Positions 28,763 to 38,286 of a DNA stretch of 48,247 bases are shown one piece after another. Both the position numbers and the translations under genes were made by a program. How positions within the stretch are numbered: position 1 is the first letter of the stretch; each line of letters opens with the position of its first letter. Where the stretch lies: positions 1-48,247 of the forward strand of contig JAUIKM010000043.1 in assembly GCA_030430495.1 (NCBI GenBank). The letters are read 5' to 3'. Below the pieces are notes generated by a model. It searched no databases. It was given only the letters and a program-made list of their open reading frames with translations, and was not told where the DNA came from. Origin of the DNA: a bacterium. GTDB taxonomy: Bacteria; Bacteroidota; Ignavibacteria; Kapaibacteriales; UBA7675.

Positions 28763-28819
28763 AAAAAAGCAGCCGACGGCCACGACGTCAAGGGGACGAA
28801 GTTTCGGGCTGTCGGCTGC
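28763..28819 (-). terminator. Terminator of module A membrane-protein gene
   Basis: Read on the minus strand, GCAGCCGAC and GTCGGCTGC form a perfect 9-bp stem followed by TTTTTT (the A-run at 28763-28768). The terminator of module B (31407-31463) shares the GCAGCCGAC stem, which supports duplication of the whole unit. Confidence 0.75.
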
Positions 28820-28868
28820 ACAAGCGCGGACGATTGAACTTTCGCAAACAATTGATCTTACGACGGGA

Positions 28869-29189
28869 TTACTCGCGACGCCCCTGGACAACATTCAGAT
28901 AGGTTTTTTCATTGTGCCGCCAGGTAAACGCGCCAAAGGCGTATCCGGCCGCAACGACCATGGTCACAAATGTCAACAAGAGGTATGTGGCGTCGGCTAT
29001 CTCAAGTCCTGCGGCGTCGAGTATCGAACGATCGTTTTGGATATTTGACCAGGCGGCGTTGAGCAAGACAAAAATGACCGCCGCCAGACCGCCGTAAATC
29101 AACATTCCTCTGAGTACGATATAGCGAAGTCGCCCCTGGTTGCGTACCTGGCCCCAGGTCCGGATAAACTGGTCCGATGGTTTATCCAT
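28869..29189 (-). CDS. Two-helix membrane protein, module A
   Basis: This 106-residue protein has two hydrophobic helices (LRGMLIYGGLAAVIFVLLNA and ADATYLLLTFVTMVVAAGYA) with short polar ends. Both ends carry motifs shared with the paralogues at 31503 and 33434: WGQVRNQGRLRYIVLRG before helix 1 and WRHNEKTYL after helix 2. It is predicted in the inner membrane. The gene follows the module A lipoprotein gene on the same strand (87 nt) and precedes a clear terminator. Position and pairing suggest that it could protect the cell from the lipoprotein or help to place it; this is not shown by the sequence. Confidence 0.75.
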   Translation of the reverse strand: MDKPSDQFIRTWGQVRNQGRLRYIVLRGMLIYGGLAAVIFVLLNAAWSNIQNDRSILDAAGLEIADATYLLLTFVTMVVAAGYAFGAFTWRHNEKTYLNVVQGRRE

Positions 29190-29275
29190 ACCGCAACTCC
29201 GACGAGTTGTTTAAACCGTGCTCCGGTCCCGGCCATTGCAGATCATACGTTAAATTGTTGTTCATAGTATTGCTC

Positions 29276-30184
29276 TCAACTTGGTTTAATGATTGCATTT
29301 GCAGAATTAACAACCGCGCCGCCGACCGCGCCCACGGCGGAAGCCGTCATCGCGCCGGCAGCCGCGCCGGGAATGCCGCCGACGGGGCCGCCGAGGATGG
29401 ATCCGCCGATTGCGCCGCCGACCAGACCGGAAACAAATCCACCGAGAGCGCCGGTAATTGCACCAACCAGATCAGCTTCGACCACCTGACGGAAACGCTT
29501 TTTCTTTTTGTCCGGATCGTCGGCGAGGATTGTGCCGGACGGATGTTTAATCGCCGCTGTCGGCAGGTCGAGATAGTCGGCATGATAGGCCGCACTGTGT
29601 TTTGCCACGGCGACAACAACAAGCGGCAACTCTTTCTGATGTTCGGGTATGGCAGAATCAATTATCTCGGTTTCGACTGCGTTCAAGGCGTCGAGCATCT
29701 CCTGCAGCGTGGCAATCTCTTCATCGACGGCGGCGGCGTGGACGTCGCGGCAGAATTGAATCTGCTCTTCACTGATCGGCAGATCGCTGTAGGCGTCCTC
29801 AACGCTGAGATTGACGACGACGTTGTCCAACATGGCTTCAACTTCGGCCTGATCGGAGGACTCGAGCAATTCGGCGATGCTGATCACATAGCCCGCCGCG
29901 GCTGTTTTAATCTGCGCATAATCCAACTCTTCAAATGTCTGCGCGCCGGTGGATGTTAAAATATAGTCGAGACCGGCATTGTGCAGAATGCCGAAATCGT
30001 TGCAGGGATTATCAGGATTCTGAATGGAAGAATAATCGCTGAGTTCGAGCGCGCCGCCGGGCGGCGTCAACGCCTCCTCGGGTGACGAGAGAACGGCGGT
30101 CTCGTTGCAGCCCGTCAGGACAGCAGCGCACACAAGCATCGCGCAGAAAAATACACCGACATAGTTCTTTTTGGTAAACAACAT
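29276..30184 (-). CDS. Glycine-zipper lipoprotein, module A
   Basis: This 302-residue protein begins with a lipoprotein signal (lipobox LTGC, cysteine 26). The middle has NPDNPCNDFGILHNAGLDYI, a motif repeated almost unchanged in the paralogue, followed by helical regions of about 150 residues. Next is a short basic stretch (DPDKKKKRFRQVVEAD). The last 65 residues are a glycine zipper: VGAITGALGGFVSGLVGGAI, GGSILGGPVGG, then alternating A and G. Such zippers are seen in class II bacteriocins and in membrane-inserting toxins. The family is not one I can name. The ATG at 30184 is chosen because it gives a normal signal; the frame stays open upstream to 30277. Confidence 0.78.
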   Translation of the reverse strand: MLFTKKNYVGVFFCAMLVCAAVLTGCNETAVLSSPEEALTPPGGALELSDYSSIQNPDNPCNDFGILHNAGLDYILTSTGAQTFEELDYAQIKTAAAGYVISIAELLESSDQAEVEAMLDNVVVNLSVEDAYSDLPISEEQIQFCRDVHAAAVDEEIATLQEMLDALNAVETEIIDSAIPEHQKELPLVVVAVAKHSAAYHADYLDLPTAAIKHPSGTILADDPDKKKKRFRQVVEADLVGAITGALGGFVSGLVGGAIGGSILGGPVGGIPGAAAGAMTASAVGAVGGAVVNSANAIIKPS

Positions 30185-31406
30185 TTCAACCTCATACTTT
30201 TTTATATACCCGAAGAAAAACTTGCTTTGATTGGTATTCGGCTTTCCTCCGGGTGAAACGTTAATTAACATTGACATCTGTTTCGACCTGACAGGCGGCT
30301 ACAGTCGCAATCGCGGTTGCGCAAAGCGCAGCGCGTGAAATACATCCCGAGCGTCCGGGGACATGCGGGATTAAATTCCAGGTGACTGCGTCAATGCAAT
30401 CAGGTGTTGTGTAGTCCGGGTTTCAGCGGTCTTGGTGCAGATTGATTTCAGGCGTCGGTATCTGCCGATCAATCTGATTGCCGTATTTGGTGCGGGCGGC
30501 TTGTGTGTTTATGTCTTTATTCGCGACTCTCGGCCTCATCCTTTATGAGTAAAATCAGTGAGTTCAGTACAGTTGCCGCTCGCGTGTATTGATCGCGAAT
30601 ACACAGCCCGCAGCCGGACAAGTCGATGGTATAGGTTCCGCGAATCCACCTTTAATGGCCCCAATGTAACAAATCGACAGCGACAAATCCAAAGAAAAAC
30701 AGCTCCATTGGTCGGATTTTTAACACATCACGTGAATGAATGGAAACACAATTCGGTCGCCAGACGGCGCTTTTGCCACATGCTTATGGTTAATGATCTT
30801 ACCCGCACGAGTTCATCCGCACTGAAACAGCGATATATGTGTGTGCTTCAGCATCCGCACGCGTGCAATTCGCTCCAATGTCCTCACTTCCGGTCTGTGC
30901 GCCATATTTCCTCGCAAATGAATGATTCTAAACAAGTTCCGCCGGCAGCAGCCGTCGAGTGTTTAACAATAATAGCCAGTTTTTAAACGGACTACGTAGA
31001 CAACGGCGGCTATTACGTATGTGCACAATTGCGTTACCGCTTCCGACGGCGGAAGTTAAAACTGCACATCTGTGCAGCGCAGGTATTCAGACCCGTTTCA
31101 ACAGAAAAAACATCCACGCACTCGCCGCCAGTCTCAAAGCAAGCGCGGGTCGGCCCGCCGCAGATCGGGGCTGTTATGAGTCGGCAGGCGACTGACAACG
31201 CGTTGACCAAATGACATCAAACTACATTCAGACAGGCCGCCGGGAAACCCGAGACAGACTCAACGACTTCGAATTTGAGTCTCCGTGGTTAACAAAAGAG
31301 GATTTAAAGTGGCGCACGCAGGCGCCGCAAGTCAACGAAAACGGCCACTGCGCAACAACGGCCAATGCACAACAACGGACAAAGGAAGTATGAGCAGCGG
31401 ATATTC
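30185..31406. other. 1.2-kb region without a gene, between modules A and B
   Basis: I see no supported gene. Open frames here have random composition and no signal or domain. Just upstream of the module A lipoprotein (minus strand), the sequence around 30245-30280 weakly resembles the corresponding position upstream of module B (around 32880-32910). Each has a similar AACGTTAATT / AACGTGAATT block and an A+T-rich stretch. It may hold the promoter of module A. The region is unusually long for this window. Confidence 0.45.
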
Positions 31407-31463
31407 AAAACGCAGCCGACGTCACCTGCTCAGTGGCAGTACTGTGCCGGGCCGTCGGCCGCG
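31407..31463 (-). terminator. Terminator of module B membrane-protein gene
   Basis: Read on the minus strand, CGCGGCCGACG pairs with CGTCGGCTGCG (one G-T wobble, 11 bp), followed by TTTTG. Its stem is nearly the same as that of the module A terminator. Confidence 0.65.
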
Positions 31464-31502
31464 TTTGGTCGGACGTGAACCTCAATACAGAAGGAAATGT
31501 CG

Positions 31503-31823
31503 CTACCCGTCTTTGTCCTGCACGAATTTCAACCACGTTTTCTCGTTGTGCCGCCAGGTAAACGCGCCCCAGGCGTATCCGGCCGCAACGACTACGAAGG
31601 TGAAAATCAGGACCATATAGGCGAGGTCGAATATCGCAAGCCCATCGGCAGCCAGAACGGGACGATCGTTGTTGACATTGGCCCACGCGGCGTTAAGCAG
31701 GATAAAAAACATTGCCGTCATGCCGCCGTAGAACACGATTCCTCTGAACAGGATGTAGCGACGTCGACCGAGCCTGCGCATCCGGCCCCAGCTTTGAATG
31801 AATTGTTCAGTTGTTCGAGTCAT
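31503..31823 (-). CDS. Two-helix membrane protein, module B
   Basis: This 106-residue protein is clearly a paralogue of the module A protein at 28869. It shares RYILFRGIVFYGG, LLNAAWANVNNDR, VVVAAGYAWGAFTWRHNEKT and the same order of helices. Two helices are predicted (FRGIVFYGGMTAMFFILLNA and DLAYMVLIFTFVVVAAGYAW). I chose the ATG at 31823 because it aligns with the module A start; an in-frame ATG at 31841 is possible. It lies 82 nt after the module B lipoprotein gene and ends at a similar terminator. Function unknown; see the module A entry. Confidence 0.75.
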   Translation of the reverse strand: MTRTTEQFIQSWGRMRRLGRRRYILFRGIVFYGGMTAMFFILLNAAWANVNNDRPVLAADGLAIFDLAYMVLIFTFVVVAAGYAWGAFTWRHNEKTWLKFVQDKDG

Positions 31824-31905
31824 GCAAAAACCTCGAGGCAAATGTTAAACAATGCGGGCGCATGCTCTGAAAACGAGCCGCACACAATTTGTTCATTACG
31901 GCTTC

Positions 31906-32808
31906 TCAACCGGGTTTGATGATTGCATTTGCCGAACTCGCAACCGCGCCGCCGACCGCGCCCAGAGCCGACGCCGCGAGAGCGCCCGAGGCCGCACCCG
32001 GTATACCGCCGACAGGACCGCCGAGCAGGGAACCGCCGATAGCGCCGCCGACCAATCCCGAGAAAAAGCCGCCGACAGCGCCGGTTATTGCGCCGACGAG
32101 ATCGGCCTCAACCACCTGACGGAAGCGCTTTTTATTTTTCTTCGGATCGTCGACCAGAAAATCGTCGGACGTCTGTTTAAGATCGGCGGGCGGCAGTTGC
32201 AGGTAGTCGGCGTGATAGACCGCACTGTGTTTGGCGACGGCGACAACTGCAAGCGGCAGGCGCTTCTGATGTTCGGGAATGGTCGAATTGATAACGTCGA
32301 GTTCAACAGCATTGAGCGCCGCGAGCATTTCCTCCAGACTGCCGATATGTTCATCCACGGCGGCCCTGTGGATTAAACGGCACATGCGGATCTGCTCCGA
32401 ACTCAGGGGCAGGCGGGCATAAGCGTCTTCAGCCGTCAGGTTAACAAGAACATTGTCCAGCATCGATTCAACGGCGGCCCGATCTCCCGGCTCCAGCAGC
32501 TCGGAGATACTGATGACAAACTCGGCACTTGCGGACTTGACCCGCGCAAAATCCAGCTCCTCAAAACGGGCCGCACCGCTCGCGGTTAACACATAATCCA
32601 GACCGGCATTGTGCAACACGCCGTAATCATTGCAGGGATTATCGGGGTTTTGAATTGCGGAATAGTCGAAGCGCTGCGGCAATCGTCCGCGCTGTGAAAC
32701 ATCCTGTGAGTCGAGCAGACCGTTTTCGCTGCAAGCCGCCAGTGCGCACACACACAGGAGGCAGACACATAAAAGCGTTCTAACGCGATTTTCTTTGTAC
32801 AACATCAT
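31906..32808 (-). CDS. Glycine-zipper lipoprotein, module B
   Basis: This 300-residue protein is a paralogue of the module A lipoprotein, alike along the whole length, more so at the zipper. The lipobox is LAAC (cysteine 26, same as in A). It shares YSAIQNPDNPCNDYGVLHNA, AIPEHQK-like (TIPEHQK) in the middle, VVAVAKHSAVYHADYL, KKRFRQVVEADLVGAITGAV, and the C-terminal GGFFSGLVGGAIGGSLLGGP. The repeated preservation of the motif and the zipper suggests selection on both copies. It is the first gene of module B on the minus strand. Confidence 0.78.
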   Translation of the reverse strand: MMLYKENRVRTLLCVCLLCVCALAACSENGLLDSQDVSQRGRLPQRFDYSAIQNPDNPCNDYGVLHNAGLDYVLTASGAARFEELDFARVKSASAEFVISISELLEPGDRAAVESMLDNVLVNLTAEDAYARLPLSSEQIRMCRLIHRAAVDEHIGSLEEMLAALNAVELDVINSTIPEHQKRLPLAVVAVAKHSAVYHADYLQLPPADLKQTSDDFLVDDPKKNKKRFRQVVEADLVGAITGAVGGFFSGLVGGAIGGSLLGGPVGGIPGAASGALAASALGAVGGAVASSANAIIKPG

Positions 32809-33433: not shown

Positions 33434-33787
33434 TTATTCAACCCGCCTTTCGGGGCTGTACATCGACTCGTTTATGCGCCACATCGCCAGGCCCCAGATG
33501 ACGCCGGCCACGAGGGCAAAGACGAGGATGTTAACCAGCGCTTCGCTGAGCGAAAATGAGCTGAAGCCGTGGCCGTGGTGCAGCGGCAGGCCGTGTTCAA
33601 GGTTGCGGACGACGGCCATGACGATGAGATAAAGCATGCCGTTCAGCAGCCCAAAACCGGCGATGCCGTGGAAGAGTACAAAACGCAACTTGCCTTCGGC
33701 GCGCGTGGATTCCCAGGCTTCCCTGTTTTTCTCTGTTTTACCGACTTTTTGTTGGTCGGCCTGCGACGATCCGGAATTGCTGGTCAT
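33434..33787 (-). CDS. Two-helix membrane protein, orphan paralogue C
   Basis: This 117-residue protein is a more distant paralogue of the module A and B membrane proteins. It keeps W-x3-R-x2-G-x2-R-F at the first helix (WESTRAEGKLRFVLFHGIAG) and WRINESMY after the second helix (VIWGLAMWRINESMY). The loop between helices is histidine-rich (HGLPLHHGHG). A longer polar N-terminal tail (about 25 residues) precedes helix 1. There is no glycine-zipper lipoprotein gene next to it; the upstream 340 bp have no coding frame. The ATG at 33787 is chosen for composition; the frame is open further upstream. Confidence 0.65.
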   Translation of the reverse strand: MTSNSGSSQADQQKVGKTEKNREAWESTRAEGKLRFVLFHGIAGFGLLNGMLYLIVMAVVRNLEHGLPLHHGHGFSSFSLSEALVNILVFALVAGVIWGLAMWRINESMYSPERRVE

Positions 33788-34125: not shown

Positions 34126-35703
34126 ATGGCAAAACGCACAAAAAAGAGTAAAAACGACGGCAACGGCGCAAACCTCGGTTTTGAGGCAAAACTGTGGACC
34201 ATGGCCGATAAAATGCGCGGGCACATGGACTCCGGCGAGTACAAACACGTCGTGCTCGGCCTGATCTTCCTCAAGTACATCTCCGACGCCTTCCAGGAAA
34301 AGTACGAAGCGCTGAAAGCCACACAGGCGACGGAATACACCGATCCGGAGGATCGCGACGAGTACATCAGCGAGCGCATTTTTTACGTGCCGCCCGAAGC
34401 GCGCTGGAGCCACATTCAGAACAGCGCCAAACAGCCGGAAATCGGCGGAATTATCGATACCGCCATGACGTCGCTTGAACGCGAGAACGCGGCGCTGAAA
34501 GGCGTGCTCAACAAAAATTACGCGCGGCCGGCGCTCGACAAACGACGTCTGGGCGAGCTGATCGACGTGATCAGCGACATCGGACTGGGCGGCGCGGCGG
34601 CGCAATCGCAGGATCTGCTGGGCCGCGTTTACGAGTATTTTCTGGGTCGTTTTGCGGCGGCCGAGGGCAAAGGCGGCGGCGAGTTCTACACGCCGCAGTG
34701 TATTGTCAAACTGCTGGTCGAAATGCTGGAACCCTACCACGGCCGCATCTTCGACCCCTGCTGCGGCTCGGGCGGCATGTTTGTGCAATCCGAAAAATTC
34801 GTGGAAGAACACGGCGGCAAACGCGACGACGTATCGATCTACGGTCAGGAATCCAACCCAACGACCTGGCGACTGGCAAAGATGAATCTGGCGATCCGCG
34901 CAATCGACGCCAATCTGGGCAAGACTTTTGCCGACAGTTTCCACGACGACCAACACGCCGATCTGAAAGCCGACTTTATCATTGCCAATCCGCCGTTCAA
35001 CATGTCGGACTGGGGCGGCGCGCTGTTACAGGAAGACGCCCGCTGGAAATACGGCAAACCGCCGGCCAACAATGCCAACTACGCCTGGATTCAGCACTTT
35101 GTGCACCACCTGGCGGCGGACGGCACGGCCGGTTTTGTGATGGCCAACGGCTCGATGTCGACCAACACCAGCGGCGAAGGCGAGATCCGCCGCAGTTTAA
35201 TCGACAACGACATGATCGACTGCATGGTGGCGCTGCCGGGCCAGTTGTTTTACACAACCCAGATTCCCGTCTGCCTCTGGTTTATCACGCGCTCCAAAAA
35301 GGCGCAGCGCAGGAAAGGTTTCCGCGAGCGCAAGGGCGAGACATTGTTTATCGACGCACGACGCATGGGCGCGCTGATCGACCGCGTGCACCGCGAGCTC
35401 TCCGCAGAGGACATTACAACAATCGCAGGAGTCTACCACAACTGGCGCAATGAAAAAGGCGCGTACGAGGACAAAGCGGGCTGGTGGAAAAGCGCTACGC
35501 TGGACGACATTAAAAAACACGACTACGTGCTGACGCCGGGCCGTTACGTCGGCGCGGAAGAAGTTGAAGACGACGGCGAACCCTTTGAAGAAAAGATGCA
35601 GCGTTTAACCACAACGCTCTACGCGCAGTTTAAGGAGTCGGCCAAACTGGAAAAGACCATTCGCAAAAACCTGGAGTTCCTGGGATTCGATGGCAAAGAA
35701 TAA
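34126..35703 (+). CDS. hsdM: Type I restriction-modification methyltransferase subunit
   Basis: This 525-residue protein is the N6-adenine methyltransferase subunit of a type I restriction system. The N-terminal helical domain has [20 protein letters not shown]. The catalytic domain follows, with the SAM-binding motif [17 protein letters not shown] (from about residue 208) and the catalytic NPPF in [11 protein letters not shown] (from about 287). The C-terminal part has FMVANGS-like and RRMGALID segments typical of HsdM. It methylates the site recognised by HsdS and is needed for cleavage by HsdR. It overlaps hsdS by 14 nt. Confidence 0.97.
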
Positions 35704-37300
35704 ACCACATACAACAGAAGTCGACGACGGCATTCCGGCCGAGCTGAAACAGTCGATCATCGACGTGTTGAGCGCACATCCGCACGTGGAGGAGATTTAC
35801 CTGACGGGTGAGCGCGCGCGCGGCGAACACCACGCGCAGTCGGATATTCAGCTTTTGTTAAAAGGCGAGAAGTTAACAGAGTCGGATCTGGATGAGTTGC
35901 GGGAGAAGTTGGAAGGAGTGGAGTGTGAGTGGTATATAGATATTCAACGTAGCAGAGCACGACTTTTCAACGAAAACATGTTGTTGCTAACTGTAAAGGT
36001 CGATGGGCAAGTTCAAGATGCCCAATTCGACAAAATCTCCGAGTTCATTGACATCAATCCTAAAAGGACAGTCAAAAAAGGTACTAATTCTAAGTATGTC
36101 TCAATGCAATGTCTTGCAGAGAATCAACGCGAGATCACTGCTATTGAAAAACGAGAGTTCAAAGGGTCTGGCAGCAAGTTTCAAAATGGCGACACGCTAT
36201 TGGCGCGGATTACACCCTGCCTGGAAAATGGAAAGACTGCATTTGTTGACAACCTTTCAGCTAATGAGATAGCACATGGATCTACTGAATTCATTGTAAT
36301 GTCGTCAATCGAAAACAAGTCCGACAATAAATTCATCTACTACCTGGCCAGATCACCTCGATTTCGTGCCTATGCGATCGCAAGAATGGAAGGTTCCTCG
36401 GGAAGACAGCGAGTGCCTGCTTCTACATTAAATGCCTACCGATTCAAATTCCCCTCGTTAAAAGACCAACGCGCCATCGCCCACATCCTCGGTAGCCTCG
36501 ACGACAAAATCGAGTTAAACAGGAAGATCAACAAAACACTGGAAGAAATGGCGCAGGCCATTTTCAAGAGTTGGTTTATCGACTTTGATCCGGTGGTCTG
36601 GAAGGCCGTACAGGCGGGCAAAGACGTGCCGGAGCAGTTTCACAAGGCGGCGCAGCGCTACCGCGAACAGCCGGAGCGCATGACGCTCAATGCGGAGACT
36701 CTCGACCTGTTTCCCGATGAGTTTGTGGAGTCGGAGCTGGGTTGGGTGCCGCGGGGGTGGGAGGTGAAAAAACTGGGAACCATCTTTCAACTCCGTTATG
36801 GCAAGAGCTTAAAAAGAAGTAGTAGGGTTAACGGCCCTTTCCCGGTTTACGGGTCTGGTGGAATTACAGGCTATCACAATACATTCTTGTCGGAAGGACC
36901 GGGGGTCATTGTTGGTCGAAAAGGAACTGTCGGTTCTTTGTACTGGGAAGACAAACCATTCTATCCTATTGATACCGTATTCTACGTAGATGTATCTAAT
37001 CCTCAGCAATTGCCCTGGATTTATTACACTTTACAGACAATTGATATCAAAAGCCTTGCGGCAGATTCGGCTGTTCCAGGTGTAAATCGTCACTTTATAC
37101 TTGGCCAGAAAAGTGCTTCGCCATCCAGTCAAATCCTCAATAAATTTTTTACTATTGTCAATACGATCCGAAAGAACATCAACTCTCAATCCAAAACATC
37201 TGAAGATCTGGTAATCCTCCGCGACACCCTCCTCCCCAAACTCATTTCCGGCGAACTGCGGATACAGGACGTCGACAAAGTATTGGAGAATGCATTATGA
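35690..37300 (+). CDS. hsdS: HsdS specificity subunit with N-terminal MNT-like domain
   Basis: This 536-residue protein has two parts. Residues 1 to about 100 look like a minimal nucleotidyltransferase (MNT) domain. The segment [20 protein letters not shown] aligns with the GS-RARG-x-SD-x-D motif of this family, but the usual Ser is Glu41 and the second Asp is Gln54 (SDIQ), so it may be inactive. A third acidic site may be Asp84 in WYIDI. From about residue 110 it is a normal type I specificity subunit with two target recognition domains (about 115-260 and 350-500) around the central helix [20 protein letters not shown]. It ends with the second conserved helix ([13 protein letters not shown]). 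The target sequence is set by the two TRDs. Both TRD regions are A+T-richer than the rest, a sign of domain exchange. Confidence 0.85.
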
Positions 37301-38286
37301 GCGCAACCCTAAAACCCTGGGTTAAAGGTCCGCTGGAGATCATTGTCAATGCCGAATTGCAGTATCGCAGCGGCGAGGACTACGATCGCCGTCAGGCTTT
37401 GATCAGTTTTGACAATGCAATTGAAGTTGCCATCTCGGTGTATCTTTCGCTCAATCCCAAACAACGCAACAACACAAAGTATACAAAAGAAGATGTTGCG
37501 CGCTGGAAGGTTAACTTCCACAGTCGTTTAGAGTTTCTGGCTGAAGAGATAAAACGCCGCGGAGTTGTCGCGCCTATTGACGTTGATGAACTGATCTGGT
37601 ATCACGATCACCGCAATGAATTTTACCACGGTAAAATGCGCGGCGTGCCGGACAGAGAGACGCTGGAAGGAATTCGGGCGGCGGCAGTTTGGATTGTCAG
37701 TTTCCTGTTTTACACACCCGACGTATTCCAGCAGGTTGAATTTGCCATCAATGCCAGAGCGCAGCGCCGGTCCCGATGGTCTAATGTGCGAACTGACCAG
37801 CTTATCGACAATGTGCTGGGAAAAGTAGAAATCGCCGATAGGAAATATCGAGCAAGCACGCTGCTGTTCCTGGCAGACCCCCAATATTACGAGTTCTTTC
37901 AGAGTAAACTAATTGAGGAACAGTATGGCTCGCCCAATATCTCAAAGGAAATGTATCCGGAATTGCAGGAGATCTACCAAAATGCACTAAAAGCCGAAAT
38001 TAGCTCGGTCAGGATAGAACATTTTGGTGAAAAAGTTTGCGTTAACATTTACCACAAGAACCAGGATGAAACTACAACATGTGTACGACATCCTGTCAGT
38101 GAGTGGTACGAGGACATTGAAGAACCAACATTCGACCTGGGTTGGGACCCGGATAGAAATGCACGAACAATTTTAATCCGGTCTGAAGTAGAGATTCTTA
38201 ACAGACTTGGAATAATTGACGACGAGAATATGGATCTCGCCTACACAAACAGGCATAACAATTATTTGCACAATGATATGGAATGA
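37297..38286 (+). CDS. HEPN-like protein inside the type I restriction operon
   Basis: This 329-residue protein overlaps hsdS by 4 nt (ATGA) and lies before hsdR. Its first 115 residues are helical: IVNAELQYRSGEDYDRRQAL, ISFDNAIEVAISVYLSL, then DELIWYHDHRNEFYHG. R106-N-E-F-Y-H111 is the R-x4-H motif that marks the HEPN superfamily of RNases. The tyrosine found two residues after the His in HepT toxins is missing here (HGK). The C-terminal 200 residues show no family that I recognise. I infer that it may be an RNase acting in defence, perhaps restrained by the MNT domain on HsdS. Base composition is A+T-richer than hsdM or hsdR, which suggests transfer. Confidence 0.7.
   Translation: MSATLKPWVKGPLEIIVNAELQYRSGEDYDRRQALISFDNAIEVAISVYLSLNPKQRNNTKYTKEDVARWKVNFHSRLEFLAEEIKRRGVVAPIDVDELIWYHDHRNEFYHGKMRGVPDRETLEGIRAAAVWIVSFLFYTPDVFQQVEFAINARAQRRSRWSNVRTDQLIDNVLGKVEIADRKYRASTLLFLADPQYYEFFQSKLIEEQYGSPNISKEMYPELQEIYQNALKAEISSVRIEHFGEKVCVNIYHKNQDETTTCVRHPVSEWYEDIEEPTFDLGWDPDRNARTILIRSEVEILNRLGIIDDENMDLAYTNRHNNYLHNDME

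Follow-up and report, generated by a model that had tools for sequence, protein, structure and literature searches.

Lipoproteins with variable tails and small membrane partners in Bacteroidota: a candidate polymorphic toxin–immunity family

A duplicated pair of genes, encoding a lipoprotein with a glycine-zipper tail and a small membrane protein, raises the question of whether the two products form a toxin–immunity system, a structural complex of the envelope or something else again. The genes lie in a Kapaibacteriales genome (GenBank assembly GCA_030430495.1, contig JAUIKM010000043.1, positions 1 to 48,247), and this whole stretch of 48,247 nucleotides is referred to here as the window. An earlier note, made from the letters of the window alone, proposed that the pair could be an undescribed toxin and immunity system.

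The tandem array and further copies in the source genome

The open reading frames of the window place a two-gene unit twice in tandem on the minus strand (32808-28769), each unit consisting of a lipoprotein of about 300 aa, then, 82-86 nt further on, a protein of 106 aa for which two transmembrane (TM) segments are predicted, and finally a strong hairpin. Lipoprotein 1 (31906-32808, minus strand; 300 aa) carries the lipobox LAAC with Cys 26, and its assignment draws on the ORF, its identity to copy 2, the superfamily alignment and a structure model. Its NPDNPCNDYGVLHNAGLDY motif (32593-32649, minus strand) is in the alignments the local form of a family motif, NPxDxxGxxHN, and the copy alignment places its C-terminal zipper tail, with many small-residue xxx repeats, at approximately residues 235-299 (31912-32106, minus strand). 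The partner that follows, a candidate immunity protein, occupies 31503-31823 on the same strand, with 106 aa from the ATG at 31823, which was adopted in place of the mechanical ORF start, TTG 31841; the terminator hairpin of this unit lies at 31408-31466 (minus strand; MFE -35.1, z -3.7). In the second unit, also on the minus strand, lipoprotein 2 (29276-30184) has 302 aa from a Met at 30184, chosen within a frame open from 30277 as it gives a proper signal peptide, and has its zipper tail at 29282-29476, again from the copy alignment. Partner 2, the second candidate immunity protein (28869-29189; 106 aa, two TM segments), was assigned from its ORF and its similarity to partner 1, and the unit ends in a hairpin at 28769-28819 (MFE -32.2, z -5.5).

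The two units are copies of one another far beyond chance, the lipoproteins showing 66% identity in 301 aligned columns (E 8e-132) and the partners 57% (E 3e-41). Both lipoproteins have the motif NPDNPCND[YF]G[VI]LHNAGLDY and the C-terminal zipper, and WRHNEKT is found in both partners, so that the tandem arrangement and the sequence features described in the earlier note are all present. Its claim of terminators with a shared stem needs some adjustment, since hairpins do end both units and the second stem is close to the first without being identical: the stem of unit 1 is GCGGCCGACG/CGTCGGCTGC and that of unit 2 GCAGCCGAC, while GTCGGCTGC occurs in the window in these two hairpins only. The argument that preservation of both copies speaks for function agrees with the dN/dS ratios between them (Nei-Gojobori), which at 0.20 for the lipoproteins and 0.40 for the partners indicate that both pairs are under purifying selection and both copies are maintained. 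The best-kept parts of the lipoproteins are the zipper tail (87% identity), the VAKHS block (83%) and the motif block (78%); the signal peptide and the linker have diverged. Among the ORFs neighbouring the array, no dedicated secretion or transporter genes were seen.

Two features of the source genome go beyond the account in the earlier note. A third, divergent unit is present on another contig of the 5.6-Mb assembly (L009:8799-10161, minus strand), its lipoprotein 51% and its partner 29% identical, and its G+C of 0.45-0.46 in surrounding DNA of about 0.57 suggests a recent acquisition; it adjoins SbcCD-like genes. A fourth copy of the partner, a two-TM paralogue of 117 aa (33434-33787, minus strand; 23% identity, E 6e-11), stands just upstream of the array without a lipoprotein of its own and is a candidate orphan immunity gene. 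Upstream of it, at 33919-33891 (minus strand), there is an 11/12 match to the sigma-70 promoter consensus, in a scan whose sites were overall no more numerous than in shuffles. Every lipoprotein of the source genome (3/3 units) thus has a same-family partner, with one partner an orphan, and in two further genomes of the source's family the lipoprotein gene is absent.

A lipoprotein superfamily with changing tails and partners

A profile of the three copies retrieved one true weak relative, and the profile with that relative added found a superfamily in the sample of the phylum; weak profile matches at L118, L119 and L067 were dropped as unrelated. Members share a lipobox Cys, the motif NPxDxxGxxHN, a helical middle that ends in VA(K/R)HSxxYW, then ADxxGA and a variable hydrophobic tail. 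The G and H of GxxHN are invariant in the alignment, the N is found in at least 90% and HSxxYW is conserved; the motif that had been called nearly invariant in the window is thus present, as a local form only of this wider one. The spread is patchy, with members in 5 of 23 genomes of one family in the source's order and in 44 of 199 Flavobacterium genomes, and among named genomes 49 loci were located, almost all labelled Flavobacterium or Flavobacteriaceae, which points to Bacteroidota as the phylum. When 101 non-identical members were clustered with phmmer, 99 N-terminal domains fell into one cluster, the C-termini into 11 and the partners into 22.

Searches of Pfam, NCBIfam, PHROGs and PDB sequences gave sub-threshold matches only, among them one of C19orf12 to the zipper, which was ascribed to composition. 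Single-sequence scans of genome contigs and of plasmids returned no matches, a search of viral contigs with the Flavobacterium alignment returned no relative, and no paper describing the lipoprotein family was found in the open-licence literature searched. On this evidence from sequence, the family appears to be undescribed, and Bacteroidota-wide but patchy in its occurrence.

The AlphaFold2 model of window lipoprotein 1 (m51f012d3a6d3) has a confident helical N-terminal domain, with pLDDT 80-97 over most of it, a mean of 72 over the whole chain and low confidence at the end of the zipper tail. A Flavobacterium relative was modelled with a pLDDT of 82 and a pTM of 0.80 over the whole chain, which ends in two hydrophobic C-terminal helices. 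A fold search of the PDB with the helical domain gave no outstanding chain, all Foldseek E values being above 0.4 and VIA Z reaching at most 5, and weak rows such as those for MCL-1 and diphtheria toxin are not taken as evidence. As to location, the earlier note had suggested a lipid anchor at the outer membrane. The lipobox supports the predicted lipid anchoring of the window lipoproteins; for a place at the outer membrane or on the surface there is no more than a hint, given the single acidic residue that the window copies have shortly after the Cys. Acidic residues after the Cys resemble the lipoprotein export signal of Bacteroidetes (PMC5080379), and at least two within six positions are present in 58 of 79 relatives, a count with no background rate beside it.

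A partner with at least two TM segments and at most 150 aa, as counted with a simple hydropathy window, comes directly after the lipoprotein in 63 of 101 members (62%) vs 2 of 195 control genes (1%), the controls being genes of similar size put through the same procedure; an earlier background on called genes only gave 9 of 401. Without the short-tail Flavobacterium group the count is 17 of 39 (Fisher p about 2e-13), and as the relatives are statistically non-independent these p-values are a guide only. The pairing is not built in by the search, as the profile that finds the lipoproteins contains no partner sequence. Gaps between the two genes are mostly -4 to +8 nt and the frames often overlap, which is also common in the short-tail Flavobacterium lipoproteins, most of which have a two-TM protein of 69-93 aa as the next gene. 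In other members the place is taken by some other small membrane protein, of 54-140 aa with one to four TM segments, and some members with other tails have secreted or OMP-like partners instead of TM proteins. Profile-profile comparison of the main partner families found no clear similarity between them, and they were not joined. The window's own two-TM family is also found on its own, among unrelated neighbours.

Counting all types, a partner is evident for 76 of the 101 lipoproteins, so that the consistent pairing across genomes looked for in the earlier note holds for most members and is not evident for 25. These 25 include the f55 family group (L055, L059, L061-L063) and Flavobacterium forms with KKNTD tails, among them L189, L192, L194-L196, L198 and L199, where the position directly downstream lacks a small TM gene on the same strand. 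At one further locus (L120:4846-5547) the lipoprotein frame is apparently broken and the downstream partner intact.

Within Flavobacterium, the type of tail goes with the type of partner. Short KDKDW tails are found with a two-TM partner of 81-93 aa, zipper tails of the GYGQVAYG type with two-TM partners of 54-69 aa, WWKW/RWWS tails with secreted partners of 183-198 aa, and GALTGIQSG tails with a partner of 230-235 aa that has three to four TM segments; the rarer types are represented by two to four loci each. As read from these sequences, this matching is the feature that would best separate a toxin–immunity system from a structural complex or chance neighbours.

Candidate functions of the pair

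Considering the question posed at the outset, a constant N-terminus joined to a swappable tail and followed by a swappable partner appears to match the way in which polymorphic toxin–immunity systems are organised. Such systems have a shared N-terminal domain, found here in 99 of 101 members with a presumed role in trafficking, a variable C-terminus, of which there are 11 clusters, and a diverse, cognate immunity gene directly downstream, in whose place most members here have a gene for a small membrane protein matched to the tail and 25 of 101 have no evident partner. We lean towards the view that each unit of the array pairs a toxin with its immunity protein, the toxin belonging to a lipid-anchored, polymorphic family in Bacteroidota. 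The broader proposal, that undescribed lipid-anchored polymorphic toxins occur scattered across the phylum, sharing one helical domain for delivery and combining it with many membrane-active tails that can be exchanged and with some 20 small immunity families unrelated to one another, seems to us evenly poised between right and wrong.

The lipobox would have the lipoprotein exported and anchored to the envelope, where the conserved helical domain may serve in delivery or recognition, and from display on the envelope or surface the protein would be transferred to neighbouring cells. By analogy with EsxX, TelE and CdzC/D, the variable hydrophobic C-terminus, here a zipper, might then insert into the neighbour's inner membrane and depolarise it, and the two-TM partner in the producer's own inner membrane would block insertion or channel formation by the cognate tail. 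On this view, duplication could have given units of different specificity, and the orphan could act as immunity in reserve.

Several observations favour the toxin–immunity reading. The pairing is kept in 3/3 units of the source genome despite partner divergence to 29%, an orphan lies beside the array, the spread is patchy, AraC-type regulators flank the pair at the Flavobacterium locus tested, and EsxX and CdzC/D set a precedent for glycine-zipper toxins countered by immunity proteins in the membrane (PMC12744356, PMC5380434). Against it stand the 25 of 101 lipoproteins with no evident partner, the secreted or OMP-like partners, the solitary occurrence of the partner family elsewhere, the lack of visible secretion genes nearby, the weak surface export signal of the window copies and the lack of plasmid or viral matches. 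The proposal of the earlier note gains strong though indirect support from small membrane proteins that follow the lipoprotein far above controls, from partner families that are mutually unrelated and from the matching of tail to partner; it is narrowed in that tails other than the zipper exist and the WRHNEKT-type partner is only one of about 22 families, with a wider family also in unrelated contexts.

The likeliest alternative, though we think it unlikely, is an envelope complex in place of a weapon: the two proteins would jointly link the inner membrane to the outer one, or adjust the physiology of the envelope, and the zipper would serve only to oligomerise. The lipobox and hydrophobic tail would suit bridging, the purifying selection on both genes and the occurrence of the partner's wider family without the lipoprotein agree with it, and AraC regulators at the Flavobacterium locus would fit an envelope function induced by stress. 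Such a complex should keep its partner family, yet about 22 unrelated partner families accompany a single N-terminal family, and the genes are patchily distributed.

Lipoproteins that act as phage exclusion factors are known, and the array adjoins hsdM/hsdS/hsdR, the genes of a type I restriction-modification operon; the lipoprotein might instead stop phage entry at the envelope, under the control of the membrane partner. The patchy spread would fit, but the proximity to defence genes that the earlier note suggested looking for is not systematic in the other units and relatives, the pair has no PADLOC or informative PHROG match, and no viral contig has a relative of the Flavobacterium form, and we judge such a role improbable. 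The operon has two features of its own: the HsdS-type specificity subunit (35690-37297, plus strand) has a nucleotidyltransferase-like domain added at its N-terminus (Pfam Polbeta; taken by itself the domain gives E 7e-6, slightly short of the curated cut-off), and a 329-aa ORF between hsdS and hsdR (37297-38283, plus strand) has no PADLOC match and in Pfam only a weak one, LlaJI-endonuclease-like (E 0.006).

That the lipoprotein works alone, for instance as a surface adhesin or binding protein, beside unrelated neighbours or lineage-specific accessories, would accommodate the quarter of relatives with no evident partner (25/101) and the secreted and OMP-like partner types, and has little chance of being right given the small TM neighbour in 62% vs 1% of controls, the often overlapping frames and a tail type that tracks partner type.

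If the toxin–immunity reading is true, a large unannotated class of antibacterial toxins would exist in a phylum dominant in many soils, waters and guts, a lipoprotein anchor would be able to carry membrane-active tails with matched immunity proteins, and many 'hypothetical' small membrane proteins of Flavobacterium and its relatives would acquire a testable function.

Comparison with known systems

Four known systems resemble the pair in part, and none is a demonstrated relative. In Phocaeicola, BcpT is an antibacterial lipoprotein of 499 aa, plasmid-borne and activated by proteolysis, and its immunity protein BcpI, a 57-aa lipoprotein, is encoded downstream (PMC9308784). The likeness lies in a Bacteroidota lipoprotein with a small gene downstream; a direct relationship was set aside on size and partner type, as taken from the description of BcpT.

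CdzC and CdzD of Caulobacter are zipper proteins of 84-86 aa, encoded beside cdzAB, served by a type I secretion system and held at the producer surface, with a small inner-membrane immunity protein of three predicted TM segments, CdzI (PMC5380434). They share with our units a zipper protein and a small membrane partner, and differ in that the units encode one lipoprotein of about 300 aa with a lipobox and have no transporter genes among the neighbouring ORFs.

Similarly, the LXG toxins EsxX and TelE of Bacillota, which depend on type VII secretion, have a C-terminal glycine zipper (PMC12744356, PMC10434224), and EsxX, which depolarises membranes, is counteracted from the outside by ExiC/ExiD, immunity proteins integrated in the membrane of which orphans are also known (PMC12744356). 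The extended zipper at approximately residues 235-299 is a works-alike feature only, and unlike these toxins the lipoproteins belong to Bacteroidota, begin with a signal peptide and lipobox and give no LXG match in Pfam or NCBIfam.

In myxobacteria, the lipoprotein toxin SitA joins a part for delivery to an exchangeable toxic C-terminus, is encoded in an operon with its cognate immunity gene sitI, in several cassettes per genome, and is delivered by TraAB outer-membrane exchange (PMC8546572). A search of NCBIfam up to E 1 gave no match pointing to SitA or SitI, the coverage there of all SitA families being uncertain. The tails of the family described here differ from those of SitA in looking membrane-active, and the likeness to SitA/SitI lies in the lipid-anchored modular plan, the adjacent candidate immunity gene and the presence of several units in one genome.
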